From positions 1 to 36,983 of the IMG/VR virus record IMGVR_UViG_3300051212_000518: 36,983 nt of DNA. One strand, written 5' to 3'. Shown piece by piece: positions 5,113 to 36,688 of the stretch (position 1 is its first letter; every line of letters begins with the position of its first letter). The notes beneath the pieces were generated by a model, which was not told the origin of the DNA, ran no database searches, and worked only from the letters and a program-made list of their open reading frames with translations. Position numbers and translations under genes: made by a program. This DNA comes from a virus.

Positions 5113-5747
5113 TATGCATCACCCAAGTAGCTGCCGTAAATTGTGCTGCCTATTTTATGTAAAATAATAAAACTAGTAGCGCTAGTACTTAGTGTTGGAG
5201 CAGTGCCGCTGCCGCCTTGTTTAGTCCAACTAACACCAACACTAGTCCAAGTAATTGTATTAGCACCTGCTGTAATAGCCAGCATAACAGCCTGCCCACT
5301 GGCAAAGCTAGTAGGCGATACTGGAGTACGACTGCTGGCTAGTGTCCAAGTTTGTATAAAACCATTGCTAGGATTAATATCCACACTAGCACCGTCGGTG
5401 ATTGCAAATGGAGTATCAGTAATCTTAGGCTGTGTTATAACTGGACTAGTTAGTGTTTTGTTAGTTAGTGTTTGTGCTGCTGTTAAACTAACTTCACCAG
5501 CAGCACCTTGTGGTCCTGTTGGGCCACTAGCACCTGTAGCACCTGTGGTTCCTGCTGGCCCTGTGGGACCGGTATTACCTGTATCACCTTTGGTAGCATA
5601 TGGCAAACTAGTCCAACTAGTACTACCATCACCTACCTTAAATTTATTGGTATCAGTTTCAACACCTAATTCGCCAGCAGCTAGTGTAGGATTGCTTGTG
5701 GTCCAACTAGCTGCAGCACCTCGTCTAAGTTGTATTTGTTGTGGCAT
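5112..5747 (-). CDS. Short tail fibre with Mtd-like N-terminus and collagen-like stalk
   Basis: A 211-residue fibre protein. Residues 1-52 (IQLRRGAAASWTTSNP, LAAGELGVETDTNKFKVGDG) match the N-terminal module shared by many phage fibres and the major tropism determinant, which normally attaches the fibre. Residues about 54-86 are a collagen-like stalk (GPTGPAG and GATGASG triplets). Next comes the common fibre linker LTAAQTLTNKTLTSP and a C-terminal beta domain (ITAGANTITWTSVGVSW) that usually forms the trimer foot. Both ends overlap neighbours by one base as TAATG, so it is translationally coupled to the collagen fibre upstream and the adhesin downstream. The domain order is clear; the biological target is not. 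Confidence 0.85.
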   Translation of the reverse strand: MPQQIQLRRGAAASWTTSNPTLAAGELGVETDTNKFKVGDGSTSWTSLPYATKGDTGNTGPTGPAGTTGATGASGPTGPQGAAGEVSLTAAQTLTNKTLTSPVITQPKITDTPFAITDGASVDINPSNGFIQTWTLASSRTPVSPTSFASGQAVMLAITAGANTITWTSVGVSWTKQGGSGTAPTLSTSATSFIILHKIGSTIYGSYLGDA

Positions 5748-7426
5748 TAGATAGTACCTCCATCGATAGCCGCTATAGCTAGATAACTAGAATCTGGGAA
5801 TCCACCGTCAATTACTGTGTTGCCGCCGCCTGGAGTACCATTTGCTGCAACGGTGACTCGCCCGTATGTGTCAACAGTAATATTAGCATTTGTATAATTG
5901 CCAGCAGTTACTCCGCTAGCAGCAAGACTAATAGTGCCTGTAGTAGTAATTGGTCCGCCTGTTAGGCCCGCACCAGTTGCAACACTTTGCACTGTACCCG
6001 ACGCACCACCAACTCCAGTAACACTACTAGACATGCCAGTGTCACCAAGTACCAACCAACGTTGTCCTGGTAATATAGTAATACTTGCACCTGCAGCAAT
6101 TGTTACTGGTCCAACGCTTAGTGCATTTTTACCACTAGGAATAATATATGGTGTAGTAATAATTTGACTAGTTTCTACAACTGGTCCGCTGCTACCACCA
6201 CCGCCACCGCTACTAGCAATAGTAATTGTGCTTGCATCATTTCTGGTAATAGTTACATTATCACCAGCTTGCAATTTTACATCGTCTGTAGTACTGTCAC
6301 TGCCAGTTAATCGTAGATTAACTCCGCCTGTGGTAGTTTCAGCACTAATGCCATAAGTAGCTCCGCTACCACCTCCACCACTGACTGTAACTGTAACATC
6401 GCCACCAGTATTTGTAGCTGTTACTCCACTACCAACAAAGTTAATACTACTAACATTACTAGTAAGTAGCGTACCTTCATCACTAATTGCAACGGCACTG
6501 CCTGCTCCTGTAGGTCCTGTAGCTCCTGTGGGCCCTGTGGGACCTGCTACTGTACTTGCACTACCTGTAGGCCCTGTTTGACCTGTGGGCCCTGTTGGCC
6601 CTGCTACAGTACTGTCTGCACCTGTAGGTCCTGCTATGCCTGTTGGTCCTGTAGGACCTGTAGGACCTGCTACAGTGCTATTTGCACCTGTAGGACCTGC
6701 TAGGCCTGTGGGTCCGGTTGGTCCGGTTGGGCCTGCTACTGTACTGTTTGCGCCTGTAGGACCTGTTGCACCTGTGGGTCCTGTGGGACCTGTTGTGCCT
6801 GTTGGTCCTGTAGGACCTGCTACCGTACTATCCGCTCCTGTAGGACCAGTACTACCTGTAGGGCCGGTAGGACCTATAGCACCTGTGGGACCTGCTGCTC
6901 CTGTGGGACCTGCTGCACCTGTAGGACCTGCTGTGCCTGTGGGACCTGTAGGACCACTAGTGCCAGTGGGACCTGCTGCACCTGTGGGACCTAAGGCACC
7001 TGTTGTACCTGTAGGTCCTGTAGGACCAGTTAAACCTGTAGGTCCTGTGGCACCTTGTATTAGTCCTGCATCAGTCCAAGCACTACCACTCCACACATAA
7101 AGATGGCCATCTTGTGTTACTAGGTAGCTATCACCAATAACATTATTACTAGCAGGTAGTGCTGCTACAGTAGCTACACTACCTTTAAGTTGTAAGCCTT
7201 GTCCTTGAGCACCTGTTGGACCTGTAGCACCTGTAGGTCCTGTAGGGCCGATATTACCTGTTGGGCCCGCTACAGTACTTGCAGCTCCTGTGGGGCCTGT
7301 AGGACCTGTAGCACCTTGTACAGTGTTTAAGGATTCCCAGCCTTTGCCATTCCACTTCCAGCTACGCCCACTAAAAGTATATACATAGCCTACACTTAAA
7401 CCTGCTGTTGATGGAAAATTAATCAT
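5747..7426 (-). CDS. Collagen-like tail fibre (559 residues)
   Basis: A structural fibre dominated by Gly-X-Y triplets, mainly GPTG and GATGPTG, over about residues 38-315. The run is broken by one globular insert (about 75-128: [28 protein letters not shown]) of a type repeated in the next fibre upstream. The stalk also carries six regularly placed STVAG interruptions. After the stalk comes a beta-rich region ([20 protein letters not shown]) and a C-terminal domain with [16 protein letters not shown] and TVDTYGRVT, motifs common in phage fibre C-termini. An AGGATAT ribosome site sits before ATG at 7426, and the stop overlaps the next gene. Collagen-like phage proteins form trimeric stalks; placement as a side or terminal fibre is inferred from context. 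Confidence 0.87.
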
Positions 7427-7459
7427 AGTATATCCTATACTTTATCTGTTTACTAGTCA

Positions 7460-10176
<2,717 letters not shown>

Positions 10177-10180
<4 letters not shown>

Positions 10181-10776
10181 CGTATTACATCCTTAACAAG
10201 AGTTATATTACCAGTTAAAAATGGCGTAACATTACCACTAGTGTCTGTGAGTTCAATACCGTATACCGCTGCTGTAAAATCAAATAATGCGGTTTGAGCA
10301 GCGGTAATTGTTACTGTGATAGTACTAGTAACAGGATCTATTACTATTCCTCCGCCAGGAGTACTGTTTCTAGCTAATATAATTGTGTCGCTTGCTGTTG
10401 TAGGCCTTATTTGCATTACTGCACTATAATATTGCAATGGATAAGACGCTTTATATTCAACTGTGCCGCCGCCAGTATATGTTGTAAATCCGCTACTGTT
10501 TACCTGATTAATAATAAGCGTGTTACCTGTAGCATCATTTACTACATAATACTGATCTGCAGATGTAGTATTGATCTCTTTCATGCCACCTACATTAGTA
10601 ACTCTGATTCTCCAGCCGGGCGGAATATTATGATTTGTAGTTGTTGTAATTACACAAGGACCACTTTTAGTTATTGACTGAATATTTGCATAATAAGTGG
10701 TGCTGGTTTCCCACCTATAAACTTGTTTGAAAGTGGTTCCTTGATATATTTTATAATTAATTTTTCCAGGAACCAT
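10177..10776 (-). CDS. Fibre-anchoring tail protein with inserted FCCH-like beta domain
   Basis: A 199-residue protein. ATG at 10776 is preferred over the in-frame TTG four codons upstream because GAGGTG sits four bases before it and the previous gene's TAA ends one base away. The N-terminus ([18 protein letters not shown]) and C-terminus ([46 protein letters not shown], ending VIR) match a widespread small phage tail protein type found before fibre genes. Between them, about residues 35-105, is an extra module ([42 protein letters not shown]). It resembles the FCCH-like beta-barrel insert seen in many phage structural proteins. The stop overlaps the collagen fibre's ATG as ATGA. It probably links the fibres to the tail; that is inferred from position. 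Confidence 0.72.
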
Positions 10777-10777
10777 A

Positions 10778-11122
10778 TTACACCTCAATCTTTCTTATTT
10801 CTGCCAACTTTTTAAAGTTATTAAGCTCAATAGTTAATGTGGATATATCCTGCTGTAATTTATTGTTTTCAATATTTAATTTTGTAAGCTGACTATTTAA
10901 CTCTACAATTTCATTTTGTAGCTTAGTTAGCTCCTCTGTAAGTTTAGCATTCTGAGTACCCATACGCTCTAGTTCTTCGTGCATCATTTTAATAACACTA
11001 GTTTCAGCCTCGGTACTACGCCATTCTTTAAGCAATTTTTGAATACCTACGCCTAAAGCAATAATTGCCATTCCTGCTACACTAACTGTTTGTACCAGGT
11101 TATGATTTTCTACTTCAACCAT
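10778..11122 (-). CDS. Membrane-anchored coiled-coil protein
   Basis: A 114-residue protein with a single hydrophobic segment at about residues 13-29 (SVAGMAIIALGVGIQ). It is followed by a long heptad-rich coiled coil (about 45-110, repeated Leu/Ile at a/d spacing with Glu, Lys and Asn). It is the first gene behind a near-perfect promoter and has a clear GGAG ribosome site before ATG at 11122. The shape (N-terminal anchor, long periplasmic-type coiled coil) is like inner-membrane spanins or holin partners. No outer-membrane lipoprotein partner is visible beside it, so a lysis role is only one possibility. It could also be a membrane-docking or superinfection factor. Confidence 0.7.
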   Translation of the reverse strand: MVEVENHNLVQTVSVAGMAIIALGVGIQKLLKEWRSTEAETSVIKMMHEELERMGTQNAKLTEELTKLQNEIVELNSQLTKLNIENNKLQQDISTLTIELNNFKKLAEIRKIEV

Positions 11123-11244
11123 TGCAGCTCCTTTTTGTTAGCAGTGGTTAACATACATGTTCAATTGTAGCCGGTTTGCCAACTAACTGTATTGGCTCTG
11201 CTATTGTCAAGTAAAAATATTTAAACCTTTTTTGATTCTTGTAT

Positions 11245-11273
11245 ATTATATCACAAGGGCAAGAGGTTGTCAA
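11245..11273 (-). promoter_or_regulatory. Consensus sigma-70 promoter for the fibre operon
   Basis: On the minus strand TTGACA (11268-11273) and TATAAT (11245-11250) are separated by exactly 17 bases. TG one base before the -10 makes it an extended -10 promoter. Transcription would start near 11238 and leave an untranslated leader of about 115 bases before the gene at 11122. It lies immediately downstream of a terminator, so the fibre genes form a separate transcription unit. Confidence 0.85.
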
Positions 11274-11277
11274 CTAT

Positions 11278-11313
11278 AAAAAATGCCCTGCTCAATCGTT
11301 ATTGAGCAGGGCA
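11278..11313 (-). terminator. Intrinsic terminator ending the tail-tip operon
   Basis: A perfect 13-bp stem (arms 11284-11296 and 11301-11313, loop CGTT) reads GC-rich at its base and is followed on the minus strand by six T residues (A run at 11278-11283). It lies about 130 bases after the stop of the 11445-12179 gene and a few bases before the next promoter. The sequence between 11314 and 11444 shows no convincing gene. Confidence 0.88.
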
Positions 11314-11444
11314 ATTAGCTAAACTTTTTAAGTTCTTTGTAGACCTATATGTAGTTTCCAAGTTAATTTGGTCGATTCAGTCACCAGGTCGGGGTAGTTT
11401 GTTCAATCAAAAATTTTTAGATTAACCATAGGAAAAATATTATC

Positions 11445-12179
11445 TTAAATTTCTTCTAGCTGAATACTTGAAGAATACATTGTAAATGTAAAGTGGGATA
11501 TATTAGGTAATTGAACAAATCTACCATAAATTGAATACATTTGTTCTTTTTCTTTATCAGTTATATTTGGAAATGCTGATACAAATATTGGTGTAGACCT
11601 ACCATTGGTTCTAATAATATCAAATAATTGATATTTGTCAGCTTCTGCAATATAGCTAAGATCAAAATTTAATAGTTTATGTCTAGGGTTATGGGTTATA
11701 TACTGATCGCCAGATTGTAATCTTTCATAAGTTGATTGATCATTATACTCTACATTTATACCATAGGGTATATTGTAAATAGGAGACCAATATTTAGCAA
11801 CTATAAATTTCGATACATTAACTGCTCTATTAAAACTAACAACTAATGAGGTTGTTGTACTAGTAGTAGTTAAATATTTGCTAATATATTTAATGCCTCC
11901 GTAGCCAGGATTAGCACTAGTATTAATTGATGTTGTGGTACTATCCGTTACCGCTGGAGAGTATCCTGTAACTGTTAAGGTAACTGGTGATAAATCATAG
12001 GCTAACATAGCCGTTACAACAACTGGTATCCCGCTAGAAATAGAATTAACGGTTAGTGTTACAGGAGTATTAGCAGCTATTGATTGTGTTTGGGACTTAT
12101 AATCATTTAGACTAACTGCGCTAGTACTACCTGCAACCTGCGTAATCTCATTTTTATAAGCAATTATTATATTTGACAT
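11445..12179 (-). CDS. Tail protein of unknown fold, last gene of the tape-measure operon
   Basis: A 244-residue protein that I do not recognise as a named family. The N-terminal half is beta-rich and Thr/Ser-rich (NTPVTLTVNSISSGIPVVV, SLVVSFNRAVNVSKF). The C-terminal part looks like a compact structural domain (LLNFDLSYIAEADKYQLFD, STPIFVSAFPNITDKEKEQM, FTFTMYSSSIQLEEI). It starts 11 bases after the tip protein's stop, is co-directional with it, and is followed by the terminator, so it belongs to the tail-tip operon. A role as a tail-tip or distal-tail accessory protein is inferred from position alone. Confidence 0.75.
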   Translation of the reverse strand: MSNIIIAYKNEITQVAGSTSAVSLNDYKSQTQSIAANTPVTLTVNSISSGIPVVVTAMLAYDLSPVTLTVTGYSPAVTDSTTTSINTSANPGYGGIKYISKYLTTTSTTTSLVVSFNRAVNVSKFIVAKYWSPIYNIPYGINVEYNDQSTYERLQSGDQYITHNPRHKLLNFDLSYIAEADKYQLFDIIRTNGRSTPIFVSAFPNITDKEKEQMYSIYGRFVQLPNISHFTFTMYSSSIQLEEI

Positions 12180-12190
12180 AATATTAAACC

Positions 12191-14797
12191 TTAAACAGTA
12201 ATAGTAATAGTACCGTTAGTTAAGTCAATTACAAAAGTATTAGCGTTATTTCGTAATACTCCAGCAGTCATTGTACCAATATTACTGCTTATAGAAGATA
12301 TATTTCCGTCTACTAACATATTACCATTTAAATAAAAATTTTCAACAATCCAATTGCTTCCATCGTAGTAATACATTTGTGACCACTTATACGTAGTACT
12401 GTATAGTAAACATCTATCTCTATTTTGGCTTGAAAAGCCTGCTCCAGATATTGCAGCATTACATTCTGCATTTATAGTTGCTTGAGCAGTAGGTATAGCT
12501 GTAGCATTATAAAGTCTATTTACTTGTATGCTTCCTCTAATACCGCTACCTGCAGGTCCTGTAGGTCCTGTAGCTCCTGGGGCTCCAGCAGGACCTGTGG
12601 CTCCTGTGGCTCCTGCAGGTCCTGTTGCCCCATTAACTCCGTTAGTTCCGTTAATTCCGTTAATTCCGTTAGTTCCGTTAGTTCCGTTAGTTCCGTTAGT
12701 TCCGTCTTTTGCTTTTATTACAGTAAAATCATCGTAATAAAATTTTCCGGAAGTAGTAACACTAACTCTAACTGTTATACTATCGGTTGTCATGTTGCTA
12801 TATAATATTTTTTGCTGATCTGTTCTACCAGATACAGATGTTAACGTAGCGGAACCGGAAATTACACTCCAATCTAAAGATGTATAAGCTACAGTGGACA
12901 ATGCATCAGTCTTTACAACAGTAAATACTATTTCTGTAGGATCCGATATTCCGGCAGAACTTACTTTAAATATTGAAGGAGCAGCATTTAAAATTAAGCG
13001 TTTTGTAGAATTTAATATATCAGTTATTGGAGTACCTCCTGACCCAACTAATAGTGATGGATCAATGTATGCTCCGCTTCCTGCATTAAGTATAATATTA
13101 CCAAAAGAATCTCTAATTGAAAGACCATTAGTATTAATTTTTGAAGCAGTTACACTTCCGCTAACTAATAAATTTCCATCAATAACTATTCCTGGAAATT
13201 CCCACTGTGTACCAGTATAGGTAATAGTATAAACGTAATTACTACCATTACTAAAAGTTACTGTATCTCCTTTTAGCGGTGTAGTAGGTAATGTACCACT
13301 AGTTGCCGAAGCTATAAGTTCTGTAGCTTTAGTACTATAACTTATAGCTAAATTATTTCCGCTGCCTGATGGATAAACGTAACTATTGGTATAAGCAGGA
13401 TCAGAACTATATAACTGTCTCGTTCCTCGTATTCCATTGGTGCCATTGGTGCCGTTAGTTCCATTAGTCCCATTTGCTCCTGGAGGTCCTGTAGGTCCTG
13501 TAGCCCCATTAACTCCATTAGTACCATTAGTACCATTAATACCATTAATACCGTTAATACCGTCTTGAGCAAATACTTTTGCGGCCGTCCATAACCCAGC
13601 AGTTACGGTAGCAGTATTAGTTTTGCTGATAGCTGGAGCATTTGTAACCCATAGAACAGAGCCATTACTTACTGGAGGAATATCTTTTGTCCATAAAAAG
13701 GGAAAAGTACCACTTAATATGCCGGTAGAAAATGTATATGTTAAAGAGCTGCTGTATGGTCCGCCACTTGTATTAAGAAATTGCGGTGGGGTAGATGTAC
13801 TATTATTTCTAGAATATAGGTAGACTATAGCATTATTGTATTTTGTTTCAGCAAATAGTACAGGACTAGTCCAATCATCAGCATCAATAGTGTCGCTAGT
13901 TTGATCAGCACTAACACTAGCTATAGCTATACTTACATATAAATTTTCAGTAACATTTGGCAACGTGCTAGAATATCCGTTTGCCGCTGCTCCGGACCAA
14001 GTAACAGTATTTGTAGAAAAATTATATGTTGCAACACCTGGTTTATCACTACTAGCTAAAGTAGTTCCGCTAGTTTTATAGGCATAAACGGTGACAACAC
14101 TTTTGCCAATATCACCATCTTTAGTAAATATAACAGGGGTTGACCACAAAGTATTCGCAAAAGTATATTGATTAGCTCTACCAACAGCCAGAGCTTCCGA
14201 TACCCATAACCATGGGCCATCAGTAGCGCTTGGAATAGTTTGAGACCATCCGGTAGGCTGTCCTACTAGTGTACCTAGCGGAAAGTTATATATACTATTT
14301 CCTTCGGTTATTTTCGCTGGTGCAGAAGCACTATTAGTTCTTCTATAAATCTTAAGTAAAACACTATTGAAGGCATCTTTACCTTCTCTAACTATAGGTA
14401 AACTTAAAATATTTTCAGTTGTATTAACACCTATATTACTAGCTGTTTCAGATACTACAACTTTATATTGAACAGTTAAACTTTCTTCTGCTGCGGTTAG
14501 CCAAGCACTATCTAAATTAACTATATAATCTTTAGTAGCACCAACTAGTGTAGTAAAAGATCCAGTATCTCCATATCTAAAAGACCAGGCATAGCTTGGG
14601 CTTAAATACCCTATAGTATTTGCAGTTAATGTAATGGTGCTTGGTACAGGAATTGTAGCCAAGCCCGAGTCAGATGTAGAATCTTTAGCTATTAATATTT
14701 CTTTTACTACTCCAGTAGTAATAGTTACGCTGGCACCAGTTATTCTTGAACTAGCTGTAAATAGTAATTCATTTCTGTCGTTAACAATTGTAGCCAT
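12191..14797 (-). CDS. Tail tip / central fibre protein (gpJ-like C-terminus) with collagen-like spacers
   Basis: An 868-residue tip protein. The N-terminal half has three related beta modules ending in W-x-V or W-x-x-P-V motifs (about residues 190-225, 280-310, 365-410: PWLWVSEALAVG, LYVSIAIASVS, VLWVTNAPAIS). Two collagen-like spacers follow at about 412-457 and 697-752, using GTNG and GING triplets plus GPTG and GPAG. Between them sit the motif IDGNLLVSGSVTASKINTNG, typical of the C-terminal region of host-specificity (J-like) proteins, and an Ig-like domain (TSLDWSVISGSATLTSVSG). The C-terminus (GNMLVDGNISSISSNIG, GTITITV) again resembles J-type tips. It starts one base after the 14799 gene ends. 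Role: central fibre at the tail tip contacting the host. Confidence 0.82.
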   Translation of the reverse strand: MATIVNDRNELLFTASSRITGASVTITTGVVKEILIAKDSTSDSGLATIPVPSTITLTANTIGYLSPSYAWSFRYGDTGSFTTLVGATKDYIVNLDSAWLTAAEESLTVQYKVVVSETASNIGVNTTENILSLPIVREGKDAFNSVLLKIYRRTNSASAPAKITEGNSIYNFPLGTLVGQPTGWSQTIPSATDGPWLWVSEALAVGRANQYTFANTLWSTPVIFTKDGDIGKSVVTVYAYKTSGTTLASSDKPGVATYNFSTNTVTWSGAAANGYSSTLPNVTENLYVSIAIASVSADQTSDTIDADDWTSPVLFAETKYNNAIVYLYSRNNSTSTPPQFLNTSGGPYSSSLTYTFSTGILSGTFPFLWTKDIPPVSNGSVLWVTNAPAISKTNTATVTAGLWTAAKVFAQDGINGINGINGTNGTNGVNGATGPTGPPGANGTNGTNGTNGTNGIRGTRQLYSSDPAYTNSYVYPSGSGNNLAISYSTKATELIASATSGTLPTTPLKGDTVTFSNGSNYVYTITYTGTQWEFPGIVIDGNLLVSGSVTASKINTNGLSIRDSFGNIILNAGSGAYIDPSLLVGSGGTPITDILNSTKRLILNAAPSIFKVSSAGISDPTEIVFTVVKTDALSTVAYTSLDWSVISGSATLTSVSGRTDQQKILYSNMTTDSITVRVSVTTSGKFYYDDFTVIKAKDGTNGTNGTNGTNGINGINGTNGVNGATGPAGATGATGPAGAPGATGPTGPAGSGIRGSIQVNRLYNATAIPTAQATINAECNAAISGAGFSSQNRDRCLLYSTTYKWSQMYYYDGSNWIVENFYLNGNMLVDGNISSISSNIGTMTAGVLRNNANTFVIDLTNGTITITV
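12634..12705. repeat. 9-bp tandem repeats encoding GTN/GIN triplets
   Basis: About eight near-identical 9-base units (TCCGTTAGT or TCCGTTAAT on the plus strand) encode consecutive Gly-Thr-Asn or Gly-Ile-Asn triplets of the tip protein. A second, more diverged set lies at about 13427-13562. Such short in-frame repeats are prone to length change without loss of frame. Confidence 0.8.
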
Positions 14798-33290: not shown

Positions 33291-33763
33291 TAAACACCTT
33301 CGCCACTAATCAGTTTGTGTATAAGCTGACCGTACTTTGATCCGTCACCCTCATTAATTTGCACGTTTACCTGCCGCTGCGGTCCAGCCTGACCTTGCTT
33401 GGCTTTTTCTAGCTGTATCTCGCGGTCTAGGAGGTCCATGCTCATTTTATGGCTAAGTGCTAAGAGTTCAGCTATGTCTTTACTGCTACCAACACCCGAC
33501 TCCTCCATCTCAGTAAACTTTTGCTTGATCAGTGCATCCATGGCGCGGCGCATTAAAAAGCGGTTGTTATATCCAGTATCAAAAAATACGTGGTCTATGT
33601 AGTTGCGTACCTCGCGACGGGCTAGTGTGGTTGTTACCAGTTCAGGGTCGAGGTCCAACTCGTGTGCAACCACTCTGGCGTCCTGCACCTGCAGGTAGCA
33701 ATTGGCAATCTCCAGGGCCTCTGGTGAGATTTTGATGGTTTCTGCGGGTAGATGGGTGCTCAT
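33290..33763 (-). CDS. terS: Terminase small subunit
   Basis: A 157-residue protein immediately before the large terminase with TAATG coupling. The N-terminal region (ISPEALEIANCYLQVQDARV, ELDLDPELVTTTLARREVRN) has the helix-turn-helix pattern of small subunits that recognise the packaging site. The middle is helical and oligomerising (LLALSHKMSMDLLDREIQLE), and the C-terminus is Gln/Gly-rich. Its start overlaps the glycosyltransferase stop as ATGA, joining the packaging genes to the lipid cassette. Confidence 0.82.
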   Translation of the reverse strand: MSTHLPAETIKISPEALEIANCYLQVQDARVVAHELDLDPELVTTTLARREVRNYIDHVFFDTGYNNRFLMRRAMDALIKQKFTEMEESGVGSSKDIAELLALSHKMSMDLLDREIQLEKAKQGQAGPQRQVNVQINEGDGSKYGQLIHKLISGEGV

Positions 33764-34752
33764 AGTGGCCTCACCAAGTTATGTTTAAATATTTGCCAAC
33801 AATTTTGCCAGGTCCAATCTAGGCTATTCTTATAAACTATACTACGATCAAGTTGTAGTGCGGCTAAAGTAGCCACGGTCAAGTCTTGGTCTAAATAGCC
33901 TGTAACCCCATGATTTACTACATCTTGGGGTCCGGGTACTGGATAGGCTGCTATAGGTGTGCCACAAGCCATTGCCTCCAGCATAACTATACCAAAGGTA
34001 TCCCACCTACTAGGAAATACGAACACATCTGCTTGTTGATAGTATTCAGCCAATTCATGTCCTGTTTTGTATCCAGTATATAGCACGCCTGGATAATGTT
34101 TCTGCAAATAACCTAACTGTGGGCCGTCACCTACTAGGATCTTGCGGGTATTTGGTATATCTAGCTTGCAAAAATCCTCTAAGCTTTTTTCCACACTAAC
34201 GCGACTAACGCATAAGAGTGTTATTAGCTGCTTGTGCTTTTGTGCTACTGGAAAAAATATCTCACGATCAACGCCACGTGTCCAGGTGACTACATTATTA
34301 AGTCCATGTAGTTCAAGCTGCTGTTTAACAGTATTGGTAGTTGTTAAGCAGCGACCACTGTGCTTGTGAAACCAGCGTATATACCGCCAGGTTAACCAAG
34401 GTGGAACGCCTAGTAGTTTATGTAGTCCTTCAGGAAAGCGAGTATGATAGCTAGTATTGTACTTAATACCACGACGTGTAAGATATGCTCTAGCCCACAA
34501 ACCAACAGGACCTTCTGTGGCGATATGATAATAATCCGCAGGTATCGCCTCAATCGCCTGGGCCATCTTGCGTGGAAGGGCAAGTTTAACCTCCGGGTAG
34601 CCAGGACAATTAACATAGCCGAACTGAATGGGACTAAGATAAACAATACTATAGTCATCCAGAACAGCACATGCCTCCAAGTTTTTGTATGTAGTAACCA
34701 CCCCATTTATTTGATCCGGTAAATTATCTGTTATTACTAAGATCTTTTTCAC
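33760..34752 (-). CDS. agt: GT4 glycosyltransferase, Agt-like (glycolipid synthesis)
   Basis: A 330-residue GT-B glycosyltransferase. The N-terminal motif ITDNLPDQINGVVTTYKNL and the stretch HIATEGPVGLWARAY ... TSYHTRFPEGLHKLLG ... TRGVDREIFFP are the acceptor side. The C-terminal donor site has LVGDGPQLGYL and WDTFGIVMLEAMACGTPIAA (D-x7-E in place of the usual E-x7-E) followed by VPGPQDVV. This pattern is that of Agt/PimB-like enzymes that add a sugar to diacylglycerol or a related lipid. The start is GTG at 34752 with AGAGGA upstream. Neighbour of a PlcP-like gene, as in bacterial lipid-renovation loci. The exact sugar and acceptor cannot be read from the sequence; a lipopolysaccharide role is the alternative. 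Confidence 0.82.
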   Translation of the reverse strand: MKKILVITDNLPDQINGVVTTYKNLEACAVLDDYSIVYLSPIQFGYVNCPGYPEVKLALPRKMAQAIEAIPADYYHIATEGPVGLWARAYLTRRGIKYNTSYHTRFPEGLHKLLGVPPWLTWRYIRWFHKHSGRCLTTTNTVKQQLELHGLNNVVTWTRGVDREIFFPVAQKHKQLITLLCVSRVSVEKSLEDFCKLDIPNTRKILVGDGPQLGYLQKHYPGVLYTGYKTGHELAEYYQQADVFVFPSRWDTFGIVMLEAMACGTPIAAYPVPGPQDVVNHGVTGYLDQDLTVATLAALQLDRSIVYKNSLDWTWQNCWQIFKHNLVRPL

Positions 34753-34909
34753 AGTGTCCTCTTACTGTAAACCAGGGAAACTTAACCCAGGTTTTCATTG
34801 ATTGTAGTGCTAGTTCGCAACTAGCTTGTGTTTGAAATTGTAGTTGTACGCGACCAGGTATGTCGCTGGCGTCATAGATGTTAACTACTAACAATATTAA
34901 TAGGTACAT
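34724..34909 (-). CDS. Small protein with hydrophobic N-terminus and two cysteines
   Basis: A 61-residue reading frame that overlaps the PlcP-like gene's end by 29 bases and the glycosyltransferase start by 29 bases. It begins MYLLILLVVNIYDAS, a short hydrophobic stretch like an uncleaved anchor or signal. The rest has QTQASCELALQSMKTWVKF and FTVRGHCEKD, with two cysteines that could pair outside the cytoplasm. The shape resembles small secreted phage proteins often seen beside other genes. The ribosome site is weak, but coupling to the upstream gene would compensate. Function unknown; it may also be a chance frame. Confidence 0.5.
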   Translation of the reverse strand: MYLLILLVVNIYDASDIPGRVQLQFQTQASCELALQSMKTWVKFPWFTVRGHCEKDLSNNR

Positions 34910-35669
34910 TTTGCTCTGGTTTAGGGTCTTGAATAGTATGCCACTCTACTATGGCAAACGTTCCAGTATAGTCCTCGACTAGGGCTGTACAACTTTCTAC
35001 CCAGTCTCCGTCATTCATATAAATTATATTGCCAATACGCTTAATTTCAGGTTTGTGTATATGCCCACAAATAACACCGTCAAAGTGTCGTTTTTCGCAA
35101 TAGGTGGCTAGTGTTTGCTCAAATTTAAACATAAAGTCTACTGCGCGTTTCACGCGCTGCTTTAGGAACTTTGAAAAGCTCCAGTAGCCAAATCCCAGTT
35201 TATGTCGCCACCAGTTATACTTTGTGTTTAGCTCTAGAAGTACGTCATAGGCTTTGTCACCTAGCCAGGCTAGCCAAGGTGCTATGCGAGTAATGCCATC
35301 AAATAAGTCGCCGTGTATGAGTAGGTATCGTCTGCCATCTATGCCAATATGCGTCCACTGATTGGCTATTTTTATCCTGCCAAAGCTAAGATCATAGGGT
35401 ATTAGCGGCCGTAAAAATTCGTCGTGATTACCTGCAATCCAGATAACTTCTGTGCCCTGCTTGGCATGCTTTAATATTTGACGTACTACATCTGTGTGGC
35501 TTTGACGCCAATACCATTTATTTTGTTGTGCTTTCCAGGCATCTACAATGTCGCCTAGTAGGTAGATTGTTTCTGCACTATTATGTTTTAGGAAGTTGGT
35601 GAGTAATTCAGCCTTGCAACCTTTGCTGCCAAGATGAACGTCGGAGATAAAAATGGTTTTGTAGTCCAT
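34881..35669 (-). CDS. plcP: PlcP-like metallophosphoesterase (phospholipid phosphodiesterase)
   Basis: A 262-residue calcineurin-type phosphoesterase. Metal motifs: SDVH (9-12), GDIVD (39-43), GNHDE (80-84), HGD (119-121) and GHIH (202-205). The surrounding sequence (WYWRQSHTDVVRQILKHAKQ, WLAWLGDKAYDVLLELN, GYWSFSKFLK, GDWVESCTALVED) follows the PlcP type (COG2908) rather than the classical LpxH. PlcP cleaves phospholipid head groups to give diacylglycerol, which Agt then glycosylates during phosphate limitation. ATG at 35669 is chosen: GGGAGT is upstream and the longer frame starts inside the promoter. LpxH-like UDP-diacylglucosamine hydrolysis remains the alternative. Confidence 0.83.
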   Translation of the reverse strand: MDYKTIFISDVHLGSKGCKAELLTNFLKHNSAETIYLLGDIVDAWKAQQNKWYWRQSHTDVVRQILKHAKQGTEVIWIAGNHDEFLRPLIPYDLSFGRIKIANQWTHIGIDGRRYLLIHGDLFDGITRIAPWLAWLGDKAYDVLLELNTKYNWWRHKLGFGYWSFSKFLKQRVKRAVDFMFKFEQTLATYCEKRHFDGVICGHIHKPEIKRIGNIIYMNDGDWVESCTALVEDYTGTFAIVEWHTIQDPKPEQNVPINIVSS

Positions 35670-35697
35670 GTGTGTACTCCCTAATTTGGTTAGTTTG

Positions 35698-35726
35698 ATT
35701 ATATCATGCGGGCTAGTGTTTAGCAA
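35698..35726 (-). promoter_or_regulatory. Promoter of the plcP-agt-terminase operon
   Basis: Minus strand TTGCTA (35721-35726), 17 bases, then TATAAT (35698-35703). Transcription would start near 35691, about 22 bases before the plcP start codon. The same TTGCTA hexamer at the same spacing is used by the divergent plus-strand promoter at 35886. Confidence 0.8.
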
Positions 35727-35792
35727 GTTCGAGTTTTGGCACCTTGGGCTTTTTGAAAAATTTTCATAAGGTACACGTGTGGGTGGGCCCCA

Positions 35793-35824: not shown

Positions 35825-35857
35825 CCCTAGTATACCATGTACCTAGCAGTTTGTCAA

Positions 35858-35914
35858 CTACCATTCGTCGGCTGACAGACGGCACTTGCTACTGCTGCTC
35901 GATTGGCCTATACT
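35858..35914 (+). promoter_or_regulatory. Plus-strand promoter with conserved upstream block
   Basis: TTGCTA (35886-35891), a 17-base spacer and TATACT (35909-35914) drive the HTH gene. The upstream block CTACCATTCGTCGG (35858-35871), the overlapping GTCGGCTGA (35867-35875) and GGCACTTGC (35881-35889) recur almost unchanged before the second plus-strand promoter at 36801. Confidence 0.75.
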
Positions 35915-35947
35915 AGAGTTTCTTTCAACCACTACGGAGTAGCGAAA

Positions 35948-36274
35948 ATGGCAACAGCCAAAGCCCCGAACTATAGCCCTGAGCAAACTGCTCAGATTGT
36001 GGCCGACTATCAGGCCGGTGTTACGGTTGAGCAAATTGCCCAAACTATGGGCAAGACTGTTCGCTCAATTGTAGCGAAGCTCAGCCGTGAAAAGGTTTAT
36101 ATCGCTAAAGAATATAAAACCAAGAACGGCGAAGCTCCAATCAAAAAAGATGTTCACGCTGATTTTATCGGCGCAGCTCTCAGGCTCTCAGAGAACGATA
36201 TAGAATCGTTAACGAAGGCTAACAAGAGCGCACTGCGTGCGATCTCGGATTTTATCCGTAACTCTGCCAACTAG
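35948..36274 (+). CDS. Small HTH-type DNA-binding protein
   Basis: A 108-residue basic protein. ATG at 35948 is preferred because GGAG lies eight bases upstream; the longer frame begins inside the promoter. The N-terminal half (YSPEQTAQIVADYQAG, VEQIAQTMGKTVRSIVAKLS, REKVYIAKEYKT) is a clear helix-turn-helix of the resolvase/sigma-like kind. The C-terminal half is helical with SENDIESLTKANKSALRAIS. Similar small proteins are common in environmental phages and of unproven function. As the first gene of the plus operon, opposite the late genes, it is a natural candidate for a regulator or DNA-organising protein. Confidence 0.78.
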   Translation: MATAKAPNYSPEQTAQIVADYQAGVTVEQIAQTMGKTVRSIVAKLSREKVYIAKEYKTKNGEAPIKKDVHADFIGAALRLSENDIESLTKANKSALRAISDFIRNSAN

Positions 36275-36608: not shown

Positions 36609-36666
36609 AAAAAATATACCGCTATATTTTTTATAGCGCAGGCGCCAAATTATAGCATATAATTTG
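36609..36666. repeat. AT-rich inverted repeats beside parS
   Basis: AAAAAATATA (36609-36618) pairs with TATATTTTTT (36623-36632). An alternative stem CGCTATA/TATAGCG overlaps it at 36620-36638. CAAATTATA (36646-36654) pairs with TATAATTTG (36658-36666). GGCGCC lies at 36641-36646. On the plus strand the first could act as a terminator of the small operon; together with parS the set looks like a protein-binding or origin-type region. Confidence 0.6.
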
Positions 36667-36688
36667 CAACCGTGTCAAGCCCCCGCGG

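Follow-up and report, generated by a model that had tools for sequence, protein, structure and literature searches.

The window, a virus record of 36,983 bases, carries a PlcP-type phosphoesterase gene, a 61-aa open reading frame (ORF) and an Agt-type glycosyltransferase (GT4) gene at the head of a terminase operon. We conclude that the phage module they form is real, recurs and is under selection. It is a virus-adapted version of a system known from bacteria, has one component found only in viruses, and occupies a position that is unusual but conserved. Family-level gene identity, intact active-site residues, linkage, purifying selection and recurrent insertion are what we observe for this module. 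We think it probable that the three genes serve the phage as its own membrane-lipid remodelling module, through which phosphate would be freed for phage DNA.

Gene order and promoter-like sites

The set lies on the minus strand. The plcP-like gene (35669->34881; 262 aa, ATG start) encodes a calcineurin-like phosphoesterase with all metal ligands and a GNHDE motif. A virus-specific 61-aa ORF (34909->34724, ATG start) bridges it to the agt-like gene for the GT4 glycosyltransferase (34752->33760; 330 aa, GTG start), and then come terS, for the terminase small subunit (33763->33290; phrog_3802, 4.8e-34), and a T5-like terL, for the large subunit (33290->31998; phrog_2, 9e-42). The 61-aa ORF has an overlap of 29 nt with each enzyme gene, the GT4 gene and terS share ATGA (4 nt), and terS and terL overlap by 1 nt in TAATG. 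An earlier note on this DNA had read the region as an adjacent PlcP-type and Agt-type pair in overlapping frames, running on into terS and terL. The adjacency is borne out, as is the run-on, by the minus-strand order and by the GT4/terS and terS/terL overlaps. The overlapping frames hold in part: each enzyme gene overlaps the 61-aa ORF, whereas plcP and the GT4 gene do not overlap each other. The two genes of the proposed cassette are thus both present, but the conserved third ORF between them had been overlooked.

The terS, terL, portal and head protease/capsid genes stand in T5 order, and TerL is ~48% identical over its full length to those of T5-like phages of Salmonella, Escherichia and Vibrio. 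Judged by its terminase type and head gene order, the window is a fragment of a T5-like phage. On the left, the insertion site of the cassette is bordered by a divergent gene for a D5-like DNA-binding protein (35903..36274, plus strand, ATG probably at 35948; phrog_323 'transcriptional regulator, D5-like', 2.4e-8). Elsewhere in the window, several long tail-fibre genes with collagen-like and tail-fibre PHROG matches occupy the minus strand at 5747-14797, including those for proteins of 906 aa and 868 aa.

A consensus scan found two sigma-70-type promoter-like sites on the minus strand upstream of plcP, one at 35829..35857 (TTGACA-17-TATACT, 11/12, with TG before the -10) and a second just 5' of plcP at 35698..35726 (TTGCTA-17-TATAAT, 10/12). 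Both resemble the usual strong sigma-70 sites of a host, from which early expression would be possible; we infer 'late' expression of the cassette only from its position beside terS. No terminator-like site is listed on the minus strand from plcP to the start of terL, and a single promoter for plcP through terL is plausible from the sequence despite a further promoter-like site inside plcP (35050-35023, 10/12). L260 and L262 are among the relatives that retain the upstream site though they have no cassette, and cassette-less relatives have a site comparable to the second one just before terS. A search for a Pho box upstream of plcP gave one weak match (3 mismatches) compared with ~3 expected by chance, for a consensus that may not be the host's, and there is therefore no sign of induction by phosphate starvation. 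Further upstream, a sigma-70-type sequence matching at 12/12 (TTGACA-18-TATAAT) lies on the minus strand at 36649-36678 and is upstream of the region with the divergent D5-like gene. No tRNA genes, sought as hints to the host, were found.

Identity of the three products

The plcP product matches PF00149 (5.7e-16, Pfam), and its metal-binding residues D10, H12, D40, N81, H119, H203 and H205 are conserved. It fails the LpxH models, with 46.1 bits against TIGR01854 (cut-off 190.35) and 57.8 bits against NF003743 (cut-off 134). The two families coexist: four bacterial genomes examined encode both, and in them true LpxH scores 249-279 bits, compared with 44-48 bits for the PlcP-like protein. The GNHD motif has His in 36/36 viral or phage PlcPs and in 40/40 bacterial PlcPs, while 5/5 LpxH sequences have Arg (GNRD); the window protein carries GNHD, and the Arg diagnostic of LpxH is absent. 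By bit score it is closest to viral PlcPs (373-532), followed by bacterial PlcPs (257-295), a set chosen by similarity and a neighbouring agt homologue with biochemically characterised PlcPs not among them, and by LpxH (37-51). On the tree it falls in a virus-only clade (SH-aLRT 99) inside PlcP, at the end of very long branches from LpxH; this tree came from a quick search and its long branches make the fine placement unsure. The earlier note's choice of PlcP over LpxH withstood bit scores, tree, motif and coexistence with true LpxH alike. At the level of sequence, the phosphoesterase is settled as PlcP-type, and an identity as LpxH is rejected.

The second enzyme matches both GT4 domains in Pfam (PF13692, 4.9e-24; PF13439, 1e-13) and, weakly, PF20706 'GT4-conflict' (27.4 bits, cut-off 26). 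Its predicted model (pLDDT 91) has a GT-B fold with GT4 structural matches (BshA, MshA, PimA and others), which do not settle the substrate. It scores 215-275 bits to plcP-linked bacterial GT4s compared with 31-35 bits to E. coli WaaG/WaaB, and on the latter scores we rejected an identity as a lipopolysaccharide (LPS) glycosyltransferase. All viral GT4s fall into a single clade (support 100), whose neighbours are SAR11 and an alphaproteobacterial homologue (95), in a tree from which WaaG and WaaB had been dropped because their saturated branches made an earlier tree useless, and in which SAR11 plcP-linked homologues stood in for the characterised Agts (Agrobacterium agt, PB7211_960 and P. aeruginosa Agt1/2). 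In these comparisons the GT4 groups with plcP-linked bacterial Agt homologues and not with LPS enzymes, and the reading as an Agt-type enzyme stood on both tree and scores.

The 61-aa protein has five invariant residues (D16, P18, C31, K43 and C53 in an alignment of 24) and a predicted beta-beta-alpha-beta fold (AlphaFold2, pLDDT 92). It had no Pfam, PHROG or PDB fold match, and its best viral model match was a protein of an uncultured phage (E 4e-3). Its profile matched nothing in 80 bacterial plcP loci or in three other phage loci, and tblastn against 50,697 phage records likewise returned nothing. Starting from this ORF, plcP was directly upstream in 76/77 loci and a glycosyltransferase gene downstream in 72/74. 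Our guess is that the protein is a virus-specific accessory to the two enzymes, perhaps tethering or tuning them. Median dN/dS is ~0.07 for plcP, ~0.19 for the GT4 gene and ~0.24 for the 61-aa ORF, which indicates purifying selection on all three.

Recurrence and insertion among phages

Relatives of the window PlcP occur in hundreds of uncultured phages, nearly always next to a gene for sugar transfer, a pattern that suggests remodelling of the host membrane by phages as they infect. We considered those viral plcP loci that have 1.5 kb or more of downstream sequence, 143 in all, ranked by likeness to the window and not dereplicated. A glycosyltransferase gene lay within 1.5 kb downstream in 127 of them, this GT4 in 72 and a GT2/GT21-like one in 55 (the GT2 partner also matches GT21, with PF13506 over its cut-off), and the remaining 16 had no nearby gene of these two families. 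Partner-family genes were found within 1.5 kb behind plcP in 132/153 viral loci, compared with one such gene in ~1.34 Mb of the same contigs at more than 2.5 kb from plcP. The pairing is far beyond chance. Searched from the other side, plcP was just upstream of the GT4 gene in 49/51 viral relatives.

The partners are not fixed. At least 23 shifts of glycosyltransferase type are needed on the viral PlcP tree, compared with 56 if types were random, which means that partners are swapped, but not freely. The distance correlation between plcP and GT4 is lower in viruses (0.45) than in bacteria (0.88); perfect co-inheritance in phages is thus unsupported, and the partners have probably been reshuffled. 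The possibility that a single host locus was the source of both genes is addressed in part by the trees, in which the viral PlcPs make up one clade and the viral GT4s another, both with good support; a donor bacterium was not identified. None of 50,697 records of isolated phages was matched in the plcP search and in the GT4 search alike, and a DNA-level search with the cassette region returned only a 111-bp match, in pelagiphage Mosig.

Several viral contigs carry further genes at the plcP locus. A RimK-type ATP-grasp ligase gene lies between plcP and GT4 in some (L190 1970-2860, TIGR00768, 224 bits; L206 10889-11779), and a second, different calcineurin-like phosphoesterase gene in others (L015 9774-10556, PF00149; L170 8338-9141; L322 1773-2630). 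In one contig a nucleotide-sugar (UDP-glucose-type) dehydrogenase gene directly follows plcP (L200 3679-4503), and its product could be a source of UDP-glucuronate for an acidic glycolipid. A ribonucleotide reductase (RNR) small-subunit gene stands behind plcP or plcP-GT2 in L016 (10743-11729) and L176 (11463-12449). A 3.7 kb contig of a Hyphomonas metagenome-assembled genome (L087) carries a plcP (258-992) that groups with that of Mosig (support 97) and shows no Agt match; it may be phage DNA mis-assigned to that bacterium in binning.

The earlier note had called placement at the head of the late operon unusual. It is not singular, as the GT4 gene directly precedes terS (terS within 800 bp) in 44 contigs. 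The same pair was also found upstream of terS in related phages: among 73 scorable T5-like TerLs, 17 have the set before terS, five have plcP-GT2 between terS and terL, and 51 have neither, so the set is dispensable. Its presence and absence require at least 13 changes on the TerL tree. The closest relative, L260 (TerL 98% identical), has an empty site: a block of ~1.97 kb in the window (33767..35735) corresponds to 141 bp of other sequence in L260. In blastn, homology stops at 35736 and is back at 33766, with flanks 90% and 89% identical. Cassette-less relatives retain the upstream promoter, and so the set has apparently entered between terS and the promoter region of that gene. As far as these alignments go, the cassette is an insertion before terS that recurs among T5-like relatives.

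Related T5-like phages with plcP and then GT2 between terS and terL (L076 2578-4039, L331 3026-4487, L323 3977-5429) carry a lipid cassette of a second kind in this operon, in place of plcP-agt before terS. One contig (L229 5346-6030) has IscU-type and IscA-type iron-sulphur assembly-like genes between plcP-GT2 and terL, and other relatives have other small, metabolic-looking, unrelated genes between terS and terL. The gap between the two terminase genes looks like a hotspot for imported genes.

Proposed role and comparison with known systems

By homology to characterised bacterial enzymes, PlcP would act on host phospholipids, removing their phosphorylated head group so that diacylglycerol remains. 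The Agt-type GT4 would then move a sugar from a UDP-sugar onto the diacylglycerol, giving a phosphorus-free glycolipid such as MGDG or GADG. In this way the bulk of the membrane would be kept while phosphate-containing head groups are released for phage DNA, with the 61-aa protein as a virus-specific accessory. The reactions of the phage enzymes are thus read from their bacterial homologues, and phosphate salvage as the benefit is one step further removed. A context of phosphate and nucleotide supply is suggested by other copies of plcP, that of Mosig lying beside a putative phosphate transporter gene and others near RNR, ThyX or PhoH genes; among 90 sampled neighbour ORFs there were five RNR large-subunit and five small-subunit genes, neighbour counts that come without a background rate. 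Against salvage, the location of the set before terS points to expression together with packaging, a stage at which phosphate demand is not obviously highest. We also lean slightly towards a broader view, in which phages would own a virus-adapted module of PlcP, a small protein confined to viruses and an exchangeable glycosyltransferase (GT4 or GT2/GT21-like). It would have long evolved among phages and repeatedly entered T5-like terminase operons outside Pho control, and much viral 'lpxH' in virome studies would really belong to it.

The main rival keeps the same chemistry and gives it another aim, a late change of the host envelope (charge, receptor display, sensitivity to lysis or superinfection) instead of phosphate salvage. 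We regard it as possible but rather unlikely. The linkage of expression to terS-terL would fit it, as would the result of the Pho box search, and in Ruegeria loss of aminolipids lowers phage adsorption ~4-fold (PMC9938194), so lipid changes can act on phage entry. That study concerns aminolipids and not glycolipids, however, and the phosphate transporter, RNR, ThyX and PhoH neighbours of plcP elsewhere fit nucleotide and phosphate supply better.

The other explanations appear far less probable. Phage glycosyltransferases often modify DNA. This habit and the weak 'GT4-conflict' match would favour a GT4 that acts on a non-lipid substrate (DNA bases or a phage protein) beside an unrelated hydrolase, but the GT4 belongs specifically to the plcP-linked family and has plcP just upstream in nearly all viral relatives, and we consider this quite unlikely. 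It is very unlikely that the set is passenger DNA, a host-derived moron of no function to the phage that was kept by chance near a recombination-prone terminase junction. Patchy presence, clean empty sites and the unrelated genes between terS and terL in relatives would be expected of such DNA, whereas purifying selection on all three genes, virus-only clades, a virus-only third gene and the repeated re-pairing of plcP with one of two glycosyltransferase types would not. We give hardly any credence to an LpxH-like lipid A enzyme that alters LPS jointly with an LPS transferase of the GT4 family. Annotation of relatives as UDP-2,3-diacylglucosamine hydrolase would favour it, as would the LpxH entries at the head of the named profile and PDB matches of the phosphoesterase, but the protein is far under the LpxH cut-offs, has His for the diagnostic Arg, sits in a separate clade of a family that coexists with true LpxH, and is paired with a GT4 that barely matches WaaG/WaaB.

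If lipid remodelling for phosphate is the correct reading, phages would treat membrane phospholipid as a reserve of phosphate, and would remodel the membrane of the host in the course of infection. The ~112 kb of a T5-size genome hold ~225,000 phosphates, so that tens of virions per burst would require some millions, which by a rough estimate is on the order of the phospholipid content of a small cell. Matched relatives with and without the cassette make this a directly testable system. Viral 'lpxH' has been listed among genes from a Lake Baikal virome (PMC9611531) and from the surface Eastern Mediterranean at ~0.003 uM phosphate (PMC10653327). Such entries may partly be misnamed plcP and would then point to phosphate stress and not to LPS synthesis. 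In the open literature, with subscription papers and preprints outside the search, we found no paper that treats phage plcP or agt by name.

Among phages, Pelagibacter phage Mosig and Synechococcus phage S-SRM01 have PlcP homologues (48% and 34% identity) with the GNH motif, annotated as UDP-2,3-diacylglucosamine hydrolase or diphosphatase. In contrast to the window, they have no Agt homologue beside plcP and no 61-aa ORF, and plcP is not next to the terminase genes. Mosig, from a cultured phage-host pair, has its plcP homologue divergent from the putative phosphate ABC transporter gene (L082 4894-5841 and 5992-6729). T5-like phages (Demerecviridae) share with the window a TerL ~48% identical and the terS-terL-portal-protease order, but in Salmonella phage S124 the gene before terS encodes a pb5-like receptor-binding protein and not the plcP-GT4 set. 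LpxH has the calcineurin-like fold and metal ligands in common with the window PlcP, which differs from it in score, diagnostic residue and clade.

The closest likeness is to bacterial lipid remodelling by PlcP and Agt, which is already well described. Complementation of a plcP mutant of the marine strain Phaeobacter MED193 has been done with SAR11 plcP. In SAR11 HTCC7211 the agt gene stands behind plcP, and its expression in E. coli yields MGDG and GADG; bacterial plcP contexts of types 3 and 5 include processive glycosyltransferases (PMC4796936). The latter resemble the viral loci with a GT2/GT21-like partner behind plcP (55/143) and not the arrangement of the window. In the bacterial loci checked, plcP is followed by this GT4 in 50/72. 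The systems of SAR11 HTCC7211, Agrobacterium and Pseudomonas aeruginosa thus use the same two families in the same order, whereas the set in the window, for which no Pho box was found, is encoded by a phage, belongs to virus-only clades, includes an extra 61-aa gene and is fused to terS-terL.
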